A program made the position numbers and the translations under genes. From contig JAIESX010000001.1 in the NCBI GenBank assembly GCA_019745555.1, positions 248,001 to 312,000 on the forward strand: a stretch of 64,000 nucleotides of DNA, written 5' to 3'. Below are positions 5,349-23,028 of the stretch, in pieces. The notes under the pieces are model-generated. The model worked only from the letters and a program-made list of their open reading frames with translations, was not told the origin of the DNA and ran no database searches. How positions within the stretch are numbered: position 1 is the first letter of the stretch; every line of letters starts with the position of its first letter. The DNA comes from Burkholderiaceae bacterium (GTDB lineage Bacteria > Pseudomonadota > Gammaproteobacteria > Burkholderiales > Burkholderiaceae_C).

Positions 5349-5837
<489 letters not shown>

Positions 5838-5953
5838 AACCTGCAGGTTTTCACGCAATTCCGGTCGGTGTCGTCGGCAACATGGGCGACTGAGCGCGCG
5901 CGGCTGCGAATTCGGTTAATCTGGGCGCCACATCATGGACGAGGGGGTGCGAC

Positions 5954-6979
5954 ATGAGCGGGCGCAGGGGGTTTCTCATGCGGGCCGGGCAGCTGGCGGC
6001 GGCCTGGGCCGGACCAGGCCTGGTGCACGCCAGTGTGGTGCAGCGCGTGACACTGGCCGTGCCCGGACCGGGCAACCTGCTCTTTCTGCCACTCGCCCTG
6101 GCGCCGCGCATCGGCGCCGACCGTGCCGAGGGCTTGAGCTTTGACATCCTGCATGTCGGGGGCGGCCCCCAGGCCATCCGCTCGATGCTGGAACTCAACT
6201 GTGACTTCGCCGCCGCCGGGCTGTCGGCGCTGGCCCTGCAAAGACACAACGGCAAGCCGGTGCGCTGCATCGTGGGCATGACGCGTGTTCCCGCCTACAC
6301 CTTGCTGGTGCGCAGCGATCTCCGTGCCCAGGTGCGGCAGATCTCCGACTTGCGCGGCCGGGTCGTCGGGGTCAAGGGCCATGTGCCCGGCGGGCGCTCG
6401 ACCTCCCAGCTCTTTGCCGAGTATCTCCTTACGCTGGCTGGCGTCGCGCCAGACCAGGTCAATTACGTGTCGGCGGGCCAGTCCTACGACAGCCAGCACG
6501 CGGCCCTGGCTTCGGGCGCTGTCGATGCGGTGATCGCTGACGAGCCCTTCGCGACGCGGCTGGCCACACAGCAGGTCGCTTTCGTGCTGGCGGATTACCA
6601 TGACATCGAGACCACGCGCCGCCTCATGGGCGGGCTCTTCCTCAATGCCGTGCTGGGCACGCGGGAGGATGTGGTGGCCCAGCGGCCCGAACTCGTGGGC
6701 CAGGTGGTGCGCACGGTGCAACGCAGCCTGGCCTGGATCGGCGGACACACGGCTGAGCAGATGGTCGAGGCGCTCGCACCGGCCCAGGCCGAGGAGCGCG
6801 CCACCTTGCTGGCAGTCCTTCGGCGGCGCAAGACCATCTATGCTCCCGACGGGCGTTTTGTCGGAGAGCAGCTGGCGGCGGTGCAGCGTTTCCTTTATGC
6901 CACCGAGCCGGCGATGAAGTCCCAGGGCTTCCGCCTGGACAGCCTGATCGAGGCCCGCTGGGCCGGACGTACTTCCTGA
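5954..6979 (+). CDS. Periplasmic solute-binding protein, NMT1/SsuA-like
   Basis: This 341-residue protein has a Tat-like signal (GRRGFLMRAG followed by a hydrophobic stretch ending VHA) and a periplasmic-binding fold of the NMT1/THI5/SsuA type: an SMLELNCDFAAAG segment, ISDLRGRVVGVKGHVPGG, and GAVDAVIADEPFATRL are typical of that group. No ABC permease or ATPase gene is near. The next gene, 15 bp downstream on the same strand, encodes a membrane PAS-GGDEF-EAL protein with a large periplasmic region. I infer that this protein is a ligand-sensing partner for that signalling protein and not a transport component. The ligand is unknown. Confidence 0.82.
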   Translation: MSGRRGFLMRAGQLAAAWAGPGLVHASVVQRVTLAVPGPGNLLFLPLALAPRIGADRAEGLSFDILHVGGGPQAIRSMLELNCDFAAAGLSALALQRHNGKPVRCIVGMTRVPAYTLLVRSDLRAQVRQISDLRGRVVGVKGHVPGGRSTSQLFAEYLLTLAGVAPDQVNYVSAGQSYDSQHAALASGAVDAVIADEPFATRLATQQVAFVLADYHDIETTRRLMGGLFLNAVLGTREDVVAQRPELVGQVVRTVQRSLAWIGGHTAEQMVEALAPAQAEERATLLAVLRRRKTIYAPDGRFVGEQLAAVQRFLYATEPAMKSQGFRLDSLIEARWAGRTS

Positions 6980-6994
6980 GGCCGGGCCAGGACG

Positions 6995-9736
6995 ATGGCA
7001 TCGCCCGCGCTTCCTCCGCCCCCAGCTGACCGCGACTCCGCCGGGCGCGGCCAGCCCACCCCCTACAGCTTGCAGCGCCAGCTCGTCGTGCGCTTTGCCC
7101 TGGTCTTCCTGCTGGTTACCTTCAGCGGCAGCCTGCTGGTGCTGCTGGGCTACCAGACCCTGGCGCAGCAGACCCAGAAGCGCAGTGCCGACGAGGCCGC
7201 GCAGTATGTGGCGCGCCGGTACCAGACGCAGCAGGACTACTGGGTACGCAATGCCGACGAGGTGAAGGCGCAGATCGACTACATGCGGGTCTTCGCCGGC
7301 CAGGATATGCGCGGCAACTGGCTGCGTCTGCGGGCCTATTTCGCCGCGCTCGAGGGCAAGCTGGACCGCTTTCCGTCCGGTGCGGTACTCGATCCGGGCG
7401 GGCAGCCGGTGTTCCATTACGGGCCCGAGGGCGAGGCCTTGCAGCGCCGCTTCATGGCTGACGCCACGCTGCCGCGCTGGTTTCACAGCGAGGCGCGCCG
7501 CACCCTGTATGAGATGGTTTCCGTGCCTCTTTGGCTGGGGCGCCAGGGGCAAGGCCGCCTGGTGCTGCTGCAGCCGGTGGACAACGGCGTGCTGCGCCAG
7601 CTCGGCACGCAGGACACGCGCCTGTACCTGGTCCATGAAGGGCGGGTACTGGCCAGCACCGGCGGGGTGCAGGATTATGCGAAACAGCTTGCGACAGACA
7701 TCAGCGGCCCGATCGACGATGAGCATGGCCAGCGGTACGAGCAGCGCGTGGTACCGCTGTTCGAGGCCGGGGGGCCGAACTTGGTCTTGCAGCAGAGGGT
7801 CGTGCGGGTGCTCTCGCCGCCGCTGGTGCTGGCCGGCAGCTTTGCGCTGCTGGCCCTGCTGGCGGCCGTGCTCTGGCTGGTGCTGGGGCGCTGGGCCAGC
7901 CGCCTGGCCGAGCGCGTGGCGTCGCTGCGCAGCGCCAACGCCCGCTTCGCGCGCGAGCACGTGCTGAGTCCGGCGGTGGAACGGGCCCTGGCCCAGGCCC
8001 AGACTGAGCCCGACGAGATTGGCGAGGTGGCCGTGGCCAGCCGCACGCTGATGCAGAGCGTGCTGCAGCACGACGAGGAACATTTTGCCCATCTGCAGAC
8101 CCTGGACATGCTGGAAGAGGGCGTGGTGGAACTTGCCCCCGACGGCCGCTACCTGCGCGCCAGCCCGGGCTGGGCGCGTCTGGCGGGCATCGAGCTGCAG
8201 CCCGGCGCGCTGATCTTCGACCACATCCATCTGGAGGATGTGGAGAACCTGCGACACCAGTTCCTGCAGCTGGCCGAGGGCGAGAAGAACAGCCTGAGCG
8301 GGCGCCTGCGGCTGCGCCGGCCTGATGCCAAAGAGCTGTGGATCGAATACCGCTTCATCTGTGGCACGCGCCGCGGCGGCAGCGTGCGCGGGGTGCTGCG
8401 CGACATCACGCAGAGCTACCAGCTTGAGAAGCACGTGACCCACATGGCCCTGCATGACGCGCTCACGGGCCTGCCCAACCGCGTGCTGCTCGAGGATCGC
8501 TGCAAGATGGCCCTGCGCAGCGCCGAGCGCAACAACCTGACCGTGGCCCTGGGCTTCCTGGACCTGGACCACTTCAAGCATGTCAACGACCAGTTCGGTC
8601 ACAAGACCGGCGACGAGCTGCTGGTGACGCTGGCCACGGCCATGCGCAAATGCCTGCGCGCCGGTGACACGCTGGCACGCTGGGGCGGCGACGAGTTCGT
8701 CGTGCTGCTGCCCGATCTCGGCAGTCAGGCCGATGCCGAGGACGCCATTGCCAAGCTGGCGGCCGTCTGCCAGTCGCCCATCCTGATCGGCGACACCGAG
8801 TTCAACGCCACCTTCAGCATGGGCGTGGCGCTGTACCCGGCCGATGCCAAGAACGTCGAGACCCTGTTGTCGCAGGCGGATCGTGCCATGTTCGCGGCCA
8901 AGCAGCAGGGGCGCAACACCGTGCGCTTTTTCGCCGAGATCGCCCAGCGCGAGGAGGACCGCAAGGCCCTCTACATCCAGAACCGTCTGGCCACGGCCAT
9001 CCGCGAGGGCCGCATCCGCACCTGGTTCCAGCCCATTGTGGACGCGCAGACCCGCCGCGTGGTCAGCTGCGAGGCGCTGGCGCGCTGGCATGACGAGACC
9101 TATGGCTGGGTCTCGCCCGCCACTTTCGTGCCCATGGCGGAGAACCTGGGTCTGATCCGCGAGATGGGCCAGCAGGTCTGGAGGCAGGCCATCGAGAGCC
9201 TGCATCGCTGGCGCGAGCGCGGACTGGACATGCGCATCTCGGTCAACGTCTCGCGGCGCCAGCTCTTCACACCGACTTTCACGGCCGATCTGCTGGAGGA
9301 CTTGGATCGCCTGGCCATCCCGGTGTCGGTCGTCGACCTGGAGATCACCGAGAGCGTGGCCATGGAGGACGCCGAGCACACCGAACGGCGCCTGGCCGAG
9401 CTGTCGGAGGCGGGCTTCGGCATCGCCATCGACGACTTCGGCACCGGCTACTCCTCGCTCTCGCAGCTGCACGACATGCCGGCGAGCAAGATCAAGATCG
9501 ACGTGTCCTTCGTGCGCCGGGCCCAGACCGAGCAGGGCAGCCAGCTGATCCAGGCGGTGGTCAAGATCTCCTCGGCCTTTGGCCTGCAGACCGTGGCCGA
9601 GGGGGTGGAGAGCGAGGACATCGCCCGCGTGCTCACCGGCCAGGGTGTGACCCTCCTGCAGGGCTACCACTTCGGCAAGCCCATGAGCGCCGAGGACTTC
9701 GAGCGTTACCTGGCCGACAACTTCAGTGCGGTCTGA
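6995..9736 (+). CDS. Membrane PAS-GGDEF-EAL c-di-GMP signalling protein
   Basis: This 913-residue protein has a membrane helix near residues 28-52, a periplasmic region of about 220 residues, a second helix near 272-297, a HAMP-like linker, a PAS domain (about 370-480), a GGDEF domain (motif GGDEF at 564-568, inhibitory RAGD at 555-558) and an EAL domain (EAL at 693-695, then NVS, EITES, DDFGTGYSS, KIDVSFV, VAEGVE and QGYHFGKP). All catalytic motifs are intact, so both synthesis and breakdown of c-di-GMP are possible; which dominates cannot be read from sequence. The gene directly follows a periplasmic binding protein gene, suggesting that the receptor controls it. Confidence 0.93.
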   Translation: MASPALPPPPADRDSAGRGQPTPYSLQRQLVVRFALVFLLVTFSGSLLVLLGYQTLAQQTQKRSADEAAQYVARRYQTQQDYWVRNADEVKAQIDYMRVFAGQDMRGNWLRLRAYFAALEGKLDRFPSGAVLDPGGQPVFHYGPEGEALQRRFMADATLPRWFHSEARRTLYEMVSVPLWLGRQGQGRLVLLQPVDNGVLRQLGTQDTRLYLVHEGRVLASTGGVQDYAKQLATDISGPIDDEHGQRYEQRVVPLFEAGGPNLVLQQRVVRVLSPPLVLAGSFALLALLAAVLWLVLGRWASRLAERVASLRSANARFAREHVLSPAVERALAQAQTEPDEIGEVAVASRTLMQSVLQHDEEHFAHLQTLDMLEEGVVELAPDGRYLRASPGWARLAGIELQPGALIFDHIHLEDVENLRHQFLQLAEGEKNSLSGRLRLRRPDAKELWIEYRFICGTRRGGSVRGVLRDITQSYQLEKHVTHMALHDALTGLPNRVLLEDRCKMALRSAERNNLTVALGFLDLDHFKHVNDQFGHKTGDELLVTLATAMRKCLRAGDTLARWGGDEFVVLLPDLGSQADAEDAIAKLAAVCQSPILIGDTEFNATFSMGVALYPADAKNVETLLSQADRAMFAAKQQGRNTVRFFAEIAQREEDRKALYIQNRLATAIREGRIRTWFQPIVDAQTRRVVSCEALARWHDETYGWVSPATFVPMAENLGLIREMGQQVWRQAIESLHRWRERGLDMRISVNVSRRQLFTPTFTADLLEDLDRLAIPVSVVDLEITESVAMEDAEHTERRLAELSEAGFGIAIDDFGTGYSSLSQLHDMPASKIKIDVSFVRRAQTEQGSQLIQAVVKISSAFGLQTVAEGVESEDIARVLTGQGVTLLQGYHFGKPMSAEDFERYLADNFSAV

Positions 9737-13719: not shown

Positions 13720-14865
13720 ATGGTCCACACCCCGACCCTGCTGCTCATCAACGTGCTGGTCACGGCGACGTTGGCCCTGAGCCTGGGGGCGGTGTCTTCA
13801 CGCGCGCAGCGTGACGGCCTGTTCTGGTGGGCCGCGGCGCTGGCGACCCACACCGTGGCCTACACACTCTACGGCCTGCGCGGTGTGGCCCCGGACTGGG
13901 CCTCGGTGCTGCTGGCCAACACCCTGCTCGCGGCCTATTTCGCCCTGATCCTGGAGGGCCTGTTCCAGTTCCAGCAGCGCATGCCCAGCCGCGCGCTGAT
14001 CTGGGGCCCGGTGCTATTGCTGCCCTTGCTGCTGACCGCGCTGCTTGACCAGATCCAGGCGCGCGTGGTCGTGGTGGGTGTCCTGTTCTCTGCGCAGGCC
14101 GTCTACACCGTGCACGTGCTGCTGTTGCGTCGACAGGAAACACCCGGCCGCGGGCAGTACTTCGTCATGGCGGCCTATGGCGTGCTGATCGTGATGATGC
14201 TGGGCCGTGTGGCGCTGAGTTTCACCGGCGGTCTGCGGCTGGGCTCGATCACCGACTCCAATGTGACCCAGGCCGCGACCTTCGTGCTGGCCACCCTTTG
14301 CCTCATCCTCATCAGCCTGGGTCTGGTGCTCATGACCAAGGAGCGGGCCGACGCCCGCAACCGCCGCCTGGCCCTGCAGGATGACCTGACCGGCCTGCAC
14401 AACCGCCGCTTCATCTTCGAGGTGCTGGGTCAGCAGCTGGCACTGGCCGAGCGTCATGGCTGGCCCCTGGCGCTGCTGATCGTCGACGTGGATCACTTCA
14501 AGCGTATCAACGACACCCATGGCCACCTGATCGGCGACCAGGTGCTGCGCGAGCTCGCGGCCTGCATCCGCAGCCGTCTGCGCGCCCAGGACATCGCCGG
14601 GCGCTGGGGCGGCGAGGAGTTCATCGTACTGCTGCCCGACACGGACGCCAAGGGTGCCACGGTGCTGGCCGAAGACCTGCGCCTGGCCGTGCAGCAGCTG
14701 CGTTGCCTGGACCCGCAGGGCCAGCCCTTGCCGCTCACCGTGAGCATCGGCCTGCACGCCGAGACGCAACCCAAGAGCGGCCAGCGCGACGAGCTGCTGG
14801 CCGCCGCGGACCGGGCCATGTACCAGGCCAAGCAGAATGGCCGCAACCGTATCGAGCAAGCCTGA
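13720..14865 (+). CDS. Membrane diguanylate cyclase (GGDEF)
   Basis: This 381-residue protein has about six N-terminal membrane helices (residues 1-210) with short loops and a C-terminal GGDEF domain. The active-site motif is GGEEF (297-301), and an inhibitory I-site RAQD (288-291) is present at the correct five-residue spacing, so an active, product-inhibited diguanylate cyclase is expected. The N-terminal domain has no soluble sensor, so the signal is probably sensed in the membrane. A GATAAT hexamer ends nine bases before the ATG and no Shine-Dalgarno is visible. Confidence 0.92.
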   Translation: MVHTPTLLLINVLVTATLALSLGAVSSRAQRDGLFWWAAALATHTVAYTLYGLRGVAPDWASVLLANTLLAAYFALILEGLFQFQQRMPSRALIWGPVLLLPLLLTALLDQIQARVVVVGVLFSAQAVYTVHVLLLRRQETPGRGQYFVMAAYGVLIVMMLGRVALSFTGGLRLGSITDSNVTQAATFVLATLCLILISLGLVLMTKERADARNRRLALQDDLTGLHNRRFIFEVLGQQLALAERHGWPLALLIVDVDHFKRINDTHGHLIGDQVLRELAACIRSRLRAQDIAGRWGGEEFIVLLPDTDAKGATVLAEDLRLAVQQLRCLDPQGQPLPLTVSIGLHAETQPKSGQRDELLAAADRAMYQAKQNGRNRIEQA

Positions 14866-22254: not shown

Positions 22255-23028
22255 ATGCTGGAACAGAGGAACTTTCGCAAGATCGGCTGCGCCGAATGCG
22301 TGGCTGGCGCCGGCCTGGGCTTCGACTTTGCCATGGCGTTCCAGCCCATCATCGACGCGACCACACACAAGGTCTACGCCCAGGAGGCACTGGCGCGAGG
22401 CCCCCGGGGCGAGCCGGCCGGCGAGGTGTTCCGCCATGTCAACGAAGACAACCGTTACGCCTTCGACCAGGCCTGCCGCGTCAAGGCCATCCAGCAGGCG
22501 GCGGAGCTCCGGGTCGATTCCTACATCAGCATCAACTTCATGCCCAACGCGGTGTACCGTCCCGAGCTGTGTATCCGCACCACCATCGAGGCGGCCGAGA
22601 CCTACCACTTCCCGATCCGCCAGATCATCTTCGAGTTCACGGAGAACGAGTACATCACCCACCTCGACCATGTGCGCGACATCGTGCGGCACTACAAGGA
22701 GCGGGGCTTCCTCACGGCGCTCGATGATTTCGGCGCGGGTTACGCCGGACTGAACCTGCTGGCCGAGATCCAGACCGACCTGGTCAAGCTGGATATGGCC
22801 CTGATCCGCGGCGTGGACCGGGATCCGCGCCGTCGCGCCATCGTGGGCGCGATGATGAGCTTGTGCCGCGAACTGGGCACACGGGTGATCGCCGAGGGTG
22901 TCGAGACGCGCGAGGAATACCTCGCGCTACGCGACCTCGGCGTGGAGCTGTTCCAGGGGTATTACTTTGCCCGGCCGGCATTTCGCGCGCTAGCCGGGCT
23001 GCCCGCAGCGGCCGTGTACGACCGCTGA
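22255..23028 (+). CDS. Stand-alone EAL c-di-GMP phosphodiesterase
   Basis: This 257-residue protein is a single EAL domain with motifs QEALARG (EAL at 44-46), INFMPNAVY, FEFTENE, DDFGAGYAGL, VKLDM, IAEGVET and QGYYFARP, so phosphodiesterase activity on c-di-GMP is expected. A short N-terminal extension holds two cysteines (C12 and C15, C-A-E-C), a possible redox or metal site. The ATG at 22255 has CAGGAGAGCACAGG upstream. It is 23 bp downstream of the M14 peptidase gene and probably cotranscribed. Confidence 0.9.
   Translation: MLEQRNFRKIGCAECVAGAGLGFDFAMAFQPIIDATTHKVYAQEALARGPRGEPAGEVFRHVNEDNRYAFDQACRVKAIQQAAELRVDSYISINFMPNAVYRPELCIRTTIEAAETYHFPIRQIIFEFTENEYITHLDHVRDIVRHYKERGFLTALDDFGAGYAGLNLLAEIQTDLVKLDMALIRGVDRDPRRRAIVGAMMSLCRELGTRVIAEGVETREEYLALRDLGVELFQGYYFARPAFRALAGLPAAAVYDR

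Follow-up and report, generated by a model that had tools for sequence, protein, structure and literature searches.

The stretch of DNA analysed here, called the window throughout, covers 64,000 nt of a Burkholderiaceae genome and contains a gene for a solute-binding protein (SBP) directly followed by a gene for a transmembrane receptor with GGDEF and EAL domains, the enzyme domains of cyclic dimeric GMP (c-di-GMP) signalling. Both genes lie on the plus strand: the SBP gene (5954..6979) encodes 341 amino acids and the receptor gene (6995..9736) encodes 913, while the 15 bp gap between them (6980..6994) carries an AGGA ribosome-binding-like site (6989-6992) ahead of the receptor's ATG. The coordinates of the open reading frames (ORFs) agree with a preliminary description made from the DNA letters, which had placed the two genes 15 bp apart and likened them to the NspS-MbaA system. 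The preceding same-strand ORF stops at 5837, 116 bp before the SBP gene, and a convergent alpha/beta-hydrolase ORF (minus strand, from 9723) shares the last 14 bp of the receptor gene. A long minus-strand ORF (5933..9670) overlaps both genes; codon-position scoring favoured the plus-strand genes. A promoter and terminator scan returned 0 sites of either kind, and the two genes are probably co-transcribed. The host genome amounts to 2.99 Mb and is 88.6% complete.

The SBP is predicted to have an NMT1/SsuA fold (type II SBP). In particular, it matches the Pfam family NMT1 (PF09084) with 58.8 bits against a gathering cut-off of 20.5, the type first proposed for it; the best NCBIfam match, SsuA_fam, is under its cut-off, and none of the families listed is of the PotD type. 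An AioX-like identity was rejected, as the Phosphonate-bd profile (PF12974), which we take to be the AioX-like one, scores 24.4 bits, under its cut-off of 27. Read by eye, the translation begins with a putative signal peptide (5954..6034, end approximate) whose RR motif resembles a twin-arginine leader, and the hydropathy profile has no peak above 1.6; the protein is likely to be exported. By sequence and by fold, the nearest solved structure is 3qsl, a putative exported protein of Bordetella bronchiseptica (TM-score by target length, TMt, 0.87; 21% identity in the structural alignment), where the profile match stops at position 270 of 340 and leaves the C-terminal WxG stretch uncovered. The next fold neighbours are pyrimidine-, taurine-, pyrroloquinoline quinone (PQQ)- and sulfonate-binding proteins. 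In a plasmid collection, 224 records match the SBP, every one below 60% identity, and the best 15 of the 224 are Thermus/Allomeiothermus SBPs (31-34% identity) annotated as ATP-binding cassette (ABC) transporter substrate-binding.

The receptor is arranged as a transmembrane (TM) segment, a dCache-like periplasmic domain, a second TM segment, and PAS, GGDEF and EAL domains. Two hydropathy peaks, at TM segment 1 (residues 34-52, 7094..7150, Kyte-Doolittle peak 2.44) and TM segment 2 (residues 278-296, 7826..7882, peak 2.57), enclose a periplasmic sensor region of about 225 residues (7151..7825), in keeping with the roughly 220 residues expected beforehand. The GGDEF diguanylate cyclase domain (8447..8917; 166.6 bits) and the EAL phosphodiesterase domain (8981..9682; 220 bits) match Pfam strongly; the PAS domain of the preliminary description (8117..8413) is matched only below the curated cut-off (PAS_9 18.4 bits; PAS_3 22.1 bits vs 25.6), and no HAMP match is listed by Pfam for the receptor. 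The GGDEF motif, the RxxD inhibition site (I-site), the EAL motif and the loop-6 DDFG motif are all intact, and the protein carries the motif set of a bifunctional GGDEF-EAL enzyme.

The periplasmic domain has no family of its own in Pfam. The window's member matches 0 families, none matches more than one of 39 members of the domain (E up to 0.1), and the Pfam family that presumably exists for the periplasmic domain of LuxQ is not among the 6 families matched by any of the 39 at that limit. A PDB sequence search with the domain matched no chain. An AlphaFold model of the periplasmic region with both TM helices (predicted local distance difference test, pLDDT, 85.4; predicted template modelling score, pTM, 0.73) has the hallmarks of dCache, with secondary structure and Foldseek indicating a long helix at the N-terminus and, after it, two PAS-like halves. 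Foldseek gave 69 matches at E <= 0.001; among the best 50, which we take to be mostly Cache-type ligand-binding domains of kinases and chemoreceptors, the TM-scores by query length are modest (0.30-0.47; the query includes both TM helices), and LuxQ (1zhh_B; rank 49, E 3.2e-4) has the highest TMt, 0.58. The domain is therefore predicted to adopt a dCache-type fold.

The SBP and receptor genes share a reading frame, and the complex of the two proteins was modelled by reading through the TGA between them, with an alignment of 47 rows of which 6 were paired. The read-through model of the pair has a pLDDT of 87.1 and a pTM of 0.81, and its linker (342-373) is below 50; by our estimate, two independently placed domains would give a pTM of about 0.54-0.58. 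The model is compatible with the complex that the preliminary description had proposed to look for, and suggests that the SBP may dock on the periplasmic domain.

Across genomes, the two genes are conserved together. The order was searched in 300 genomes, the window's own included (299 others), with up to 7 candidates scored per genome. Close SBP relatives (30-43% identity) occur in 13 of the 299 other genomes at E < 1e-33, a cut picked after seeing the data; the rows beyond it run from E 2.5e-33 (22-33% identity) with no wide gap, and the first of these, in G016, has an ABC ATPase adjoining. Searched separately, the periplasmic domain was found in exactly the same 13 genomes, from 7 families of that listing (hypergeometric p = 5e-23, a value that is too small because kinship and the chosen cut are ignored). 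Of the 13 genomes, 11 keep the two genes side by side in the same order, including L069 with its broken SBP gene. In G088, the SBP (L062) and the receptor (L063) lie at separate places; in G248, an intact SBP (L064) lies elsewhere and the receptor is preceded by an SBP remnant only. Counted by receptor, the SBP gene is directly upstream of 11 of 14 in the order, one of the 11 being broken.

Further, the class has the domain in 3 of 368 other genomes, where each of the 4 receptors is directly preceded by the SBP; the family has it in 5 of 298, where 3 of 5 receptors have the SBP, one a remnant and one none; and the phylum has it in 26 of 397, at 28 places, 20 with the SBP, 6 without and 2 with too little upstream DNA. 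The profile for the family and the phylum was built partly from receptors found via their SBP. Pooling the receptor-led searches, an SBP of the family stands directly before 38 of 49 assessable receptors. In an SBP-led scan of named genomes, a set biased towards the SBP, the periplasmic domain comes next at 26 of 27 loci; at L079 (Sulfuricella), the 1.9 kb downstream of an SBP of the family have no periplasmic domain. There, by eye, XRE-like and Mu-transposase-like ORFs lie between the SBP and the contig end. The nearest named relatives come from Curvibacter sp. UBA7973 and a Burkholderiaceae metagenome-assembled genome (92%), Hylemonella sp. LE19 (82%) and Curvibacter sp. PAE-UM (68%), and other named carriers include Sulfuricella, Gallionellaceae, Rhodocyclaceae and Magnetococcales. 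Overall, with 9 duplicates removed, all searches yield 69 distinct receptors. The SBP gene directly precedes 56 of them (the broken L069 counted); of the 13 others, 2 have SBP remnants and 11 are without an SBP (2 of these 11 lacking upstream DNA).

Such co-conservation was a stake of the preliminary description, and the pair was found conserved, though some receptors stand without an SBP. It also speaks to whether the genes are functionally unrelated and became neighbours by chance or hitch-hiking. The distribution is patchy (own included, 6 of 299 genomes drawn from the family and 27 of 398 drawn from the phylum), as such neighbours might be, but adjacency is retained across genera and families whose receptors have differing outputs; co-conservation strongly disfavours a chance arrangement, which we consider highly improbable.

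The paired SBPs form their own clade, separate from transporter-type relatives. Trees and distance tests used the 35 pairs with an SBP above 300 bits and a domain above 100 bits, excluding the split-SBP L069 and 20 later pairs. In a 56-row tree, with L001 and L062 flagged as long branches, these 35 SBPs and 3 unpaired ones (L062, L064, L079) are set apart from 18 transporter-type SBPs with 100/100 support. Two signatures distinguish the groups sharply, PGP (35 of 35 paired vs 0 of 17 transporter-type) and the C-terminal WxG (34 of 35 vs 0 of 17); DGx[FL] (31 of 35 vs 8 of 17) and EP[FAV] (34 of 35 vs 11 of 17) are also more frequent in the paired SBPs. These differences bear on a further alternative, in which the SBP serves an ABC importer with membrane components encoded at another place, and adjacency to the receptor reflects shared regulation only. 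NMT1 proteins are normally importer subunits, which lends this alternative some weight, as do weak ABC-ATPase matches close to the pairs L093 (48 bits), L157 (up to 47 bits) and L069 (up to 44 bits). In the window, no ABC ATPase or permease was matched in 64 kb, as first noted, with one ATPase query and one permease query, a test by which genes may be missed. Yet ABC genes do lie within 1.5 kb of 9 of the 18 transporter-type SBPs, with matches of mostly 100 to over 500 bits; the paired SBPs have a clade and signatures of their own, and their association follows the periplasmic domain regardless of the output behind it. An importer subunit is thus an improbable identity for the paired SBP.

The output of the receptor varies among relatives. 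Single domain queries assign the 56 pairs to histidine kinase (31), GGDEF-EAL (17) and GGDEF (8) outputs, hybrid kinases are present, and Pfam searches agree with these calls for the 16 further receptors covered, 13 of which belong to pairs. On the tree of the 35 paired SBPs, in which long branches are flagged, changes between kinase and c-di-GMP outputs need 5 steps (bootstrap 5-6), 4 of them forced by well supported branches. A unit of SBP plus GGDEF-EAL protein, as claimed at first, is too narrow because in 31 of 56 pairs the output is a histidine kinase; what is conserved is the SBP with the periplasmic domain. Tree distances of these two are correlated over the 35 pairs (rho 0.75), and in 18 kinase pairs the SBP distances correlate more closely with those of the periplasmic domain (rho 0.85) than with those of the kinase (0.38).

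The best explanation of the gene pair, to which we assign a probability of roughly 0.75, is that it encodes an SBP-controlled transmembrane c-di-GMP receptor whose SBP and dCache domain form a portable input module. The NMT1-fold SBP would be exported to the periplasm, where it would bind a small molecule and, in a ligand-dependent state, dock on the receptor's dCache domain. Transmitted by TM segment 2 and the PAS domain, docking would switch the receptor from one of its two states, cyclase (GGDEF) or phosphodiesterase (EAL), to the other, and the state of the receptor would set local c-di-GMP. The same SBP and dCache unit would be portable, with a histidine kinase or a GGDEF domain alone attached to it in relatives.

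Several observations weigh against this explanation. The pTM of 0.81 comes from the cognate pair alone, judged by pLDDT and pTM, and is support rather than proof. In the 16 GGDEF-EAL pairs, the window's own kind, SBP distances track the periplasmic domain about as well as the other two comparisons (0.36 vs 0.31 and 0.34), and after dereplication to 9 pairs less well (0.18 vs 0.26 and 0.41), so that the distance test supports co-evolution of SBP and domain overall and in kinase receptors, and not in the GGDEF-EAL set. Moreover, an SBP of the family is missing in front of 9 receptors whose upstream DNA is available, the SBP gene is broken or degraded beside an open receptor frame at L065, L069 and L155 (assembly error is possible), and SBPs occur unpaired at L062 and L064, whose genomes G088 and G248 have receptors elsewhere, and at L079. 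The partnership can be lost, and SBP-less receptors and broken SBP genes imply that the receptor may work without the SBP. Lastly, dCache domains often bind ligands directly. The domain could then sense a ligand of its own, the SBP being a dispensable second input or a scavenger that delivers the ligand, and the titles of solved dCache relatives matched by Foldseek name complexes with amino acids, organic acids or similar compounds; the SBP-less receptors and the three decayed SBP genes fit as well. Direct sensing of this kind is harder to reconcile with the occurrence of SBP and domain in the same 13 order genomes, with direct adjacency at 38 of 49 assessable receptors and with the read-through pTM of 0.81. 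We consider it unlikely, although the most credible of the alternatives, and retain control by the SBP as the favoured explanation.

Individual loci show further arrangements. L155, with its degraded or broken SBP gene, is of the same genus as the window. The receptor at L058 has no adjoining SBP, and its genome G182 also holds a complete pair, L057; the receptor at L063 (G088) likewise stands alone, L062 being that genome's SBP. In the phylum, L137, L147, L151, L152 and L153 are a divergent group of GGDEF receptors with no SBP of the family upstream, which possibly sense directly. At L128, two tandem SBP genes of the family precede one GGDEF receptor. A natural fusion of SBP and receptor was sought and none was found among 42 pair rows (6 of them duplicate contigs). 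Elsewhere in the window's own genome (L008, C53), a PAS-GGDEF-EAL ORF has an N-terminal part that is weakly NMT1-like (24.7 bits), that is, a fused SBP-like domain, and the adjoining ORF resembles, by eye, a tricarboxylate-type SBP. At L066, L067 and L068, the pair is closely preceded by a GGDEF-EAL gene, of which the L066 copy matches the NIT (nitrate/nitrite sensing) domain. The window itself has a further GGDEF gene (13720-14865; Pfam 158.7 bits) and an EAL-like stretch (22336-22980).

Some kinase versions may also lead to c-di-GMP. In the first set, REC and GGDEF domains follow 8 of the 14 kinase pairs that have at least 1.6 kb of downstream DNA, in one ORF at six loci and in two ORFs at L054 and L081; L060, L086, L091, L092, L093 and L095 lack them. 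Among the kinase pairs from the phylum and family searches, a GGDEF domain within 1.5 kb downstream was found in 0 of 11 (L129, L131, L138-L144, L156, L157); L156 has a REC-GGDEF stretch directly upstream of its pair, and L157 a GGDEF domain 3.5 kb downstream. The proposal that kinase versions generally feed into c-di-GMP was accordingly dropped, given 8 of 14 first loci and 0 of 11 further ones. Combined, REC and GGDEF genes come next in 8 of 25 assessable kinase pairs and not in 17; therefore, the c-di-GMP link holds for part of the family only. Among GGDEF-type pairs, none of the 15 in the first set with at least 2.6 kb downstream is followed within 1.5 kb by a GGDEF domain on the same strand; L061 has a GGDEF-EAL gene on the opposite strand at 0.9 kb, and among later pairs L132 and L134 have a downstream GGDEF domain at about 1.9 kb and L135 an adjoining one on the opposite strand.

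LuxP is an SBP of another class, and LuxQ is a kinase. The pair nevertheless resembles LuxP-LuxQ (1zhh) in joining an SBP to a membrane receptor, in the match of the LuxQ periplasmic domain to the model (TMt 0.58) and in the hybrid kinases among its relatives; its periplasmic domain has no sequence match among PDB chains. NspS-MbaA of Vibrio cholerae and Sinorhizobium meliloti is similar in gene order, the gene for a two-TM GGDEF-EAL receptor directly following that for an SBP, and in the size of the periplasmic region (225 residues here vs 233 in S. meliloti MbaA, as given in a passage of PMC9993111). As summarized in part of PMC8967002, norspermidine-bound NspS favours the cyclase activity of MbaA, which is otherwise a phosphodiesterase. 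NspS is PotD/PotF-like while the SBP here is NMT1-like, a difference of family that had been pointed out from the start, and outputs are swapped among relatives of the window pair. The receptor is no MbaA orthologue, as it has GGDEF with RxxD, a weak PAS and no HAMP match, whereas the part of PMC9993111 describing MbaA gives it HAMP, SGDEF and no RxxD. An SBP, a histidine kinase and a response regulator also make up AioX-AioS-AioR, which responds to arsenite and resembles some kinase versions in this respect (abstracts of PMC5908839 and PMC4563254, among others); however, AioR controls arsenite oxidase expression, while 8 of the 25 kinase pairs here have REC and GGDEF genes after them, and the Phosphonate-bd profile is below cut-off in the window's SBP. 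In Salmonella, ArtI and STM1987 provide a further likeness, as a binding protein and a dCACHE domain are both needed for the response of a c-di-GMP protein to arginine, though ArtI is a putative arginine-binding protein and the relevant passage of PMC8846402 describes no dedicated gene pair.

Overall, the pair is probably of the NspS-MbaA or LuxPQ kind in its mode of action yet belongs to neither system, because the SBP family, HAMP vs PAS, SGDEF vs GGDEF and RxxD all differ; its own features are a separate SBP clade, a sensor domain that no Pfam family covers, and outputs that are exchanged among relatives. The NspS-MbaA-like mode put forward in the preliminary description survives as the best reading, with which the docking model is compatible, but the conserved unit is wider than GGDEF-EAL receptors, as 31 of 56 pairs are kinases. 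A broader proposal is tentative, and we place it somewhat short of even odds: a portable and previously undescribed cassette of a dedicated NMT1-clade SBP and a Pfam-less dCache exodomain may travel as a single unit across Pseudomonadota and be rewired between direct c-di-GMP enzymes and kinases. Some of the kinases would pass the signal on to REC-GGDEF proteins, and a given kind of periplasmic ligand could thereby report to c-di-GMP by two routes.

A search of the open-licence literature found no paper joining NMT1 and GGDEF, which does not by itself establish absence from print. SBP-driven control of c-di-GMP so far rests on few studied cases: among families of the PBP clan that occur as domains in c-di-GMP proteins, only SBP_bac_3 is named as studied in the relevant part of PMC8846402, and a passage of PMC9602780 anticipates signalling roles for additional SBP families. 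The SBP family described here offers a clear route to a new ligand. Further, one SBP-sensor unit natively joined to cyclases, to cyclase-phosphodiesterases and to kinases provides natural swaps with which questions of how docking leads to output may be addressed.

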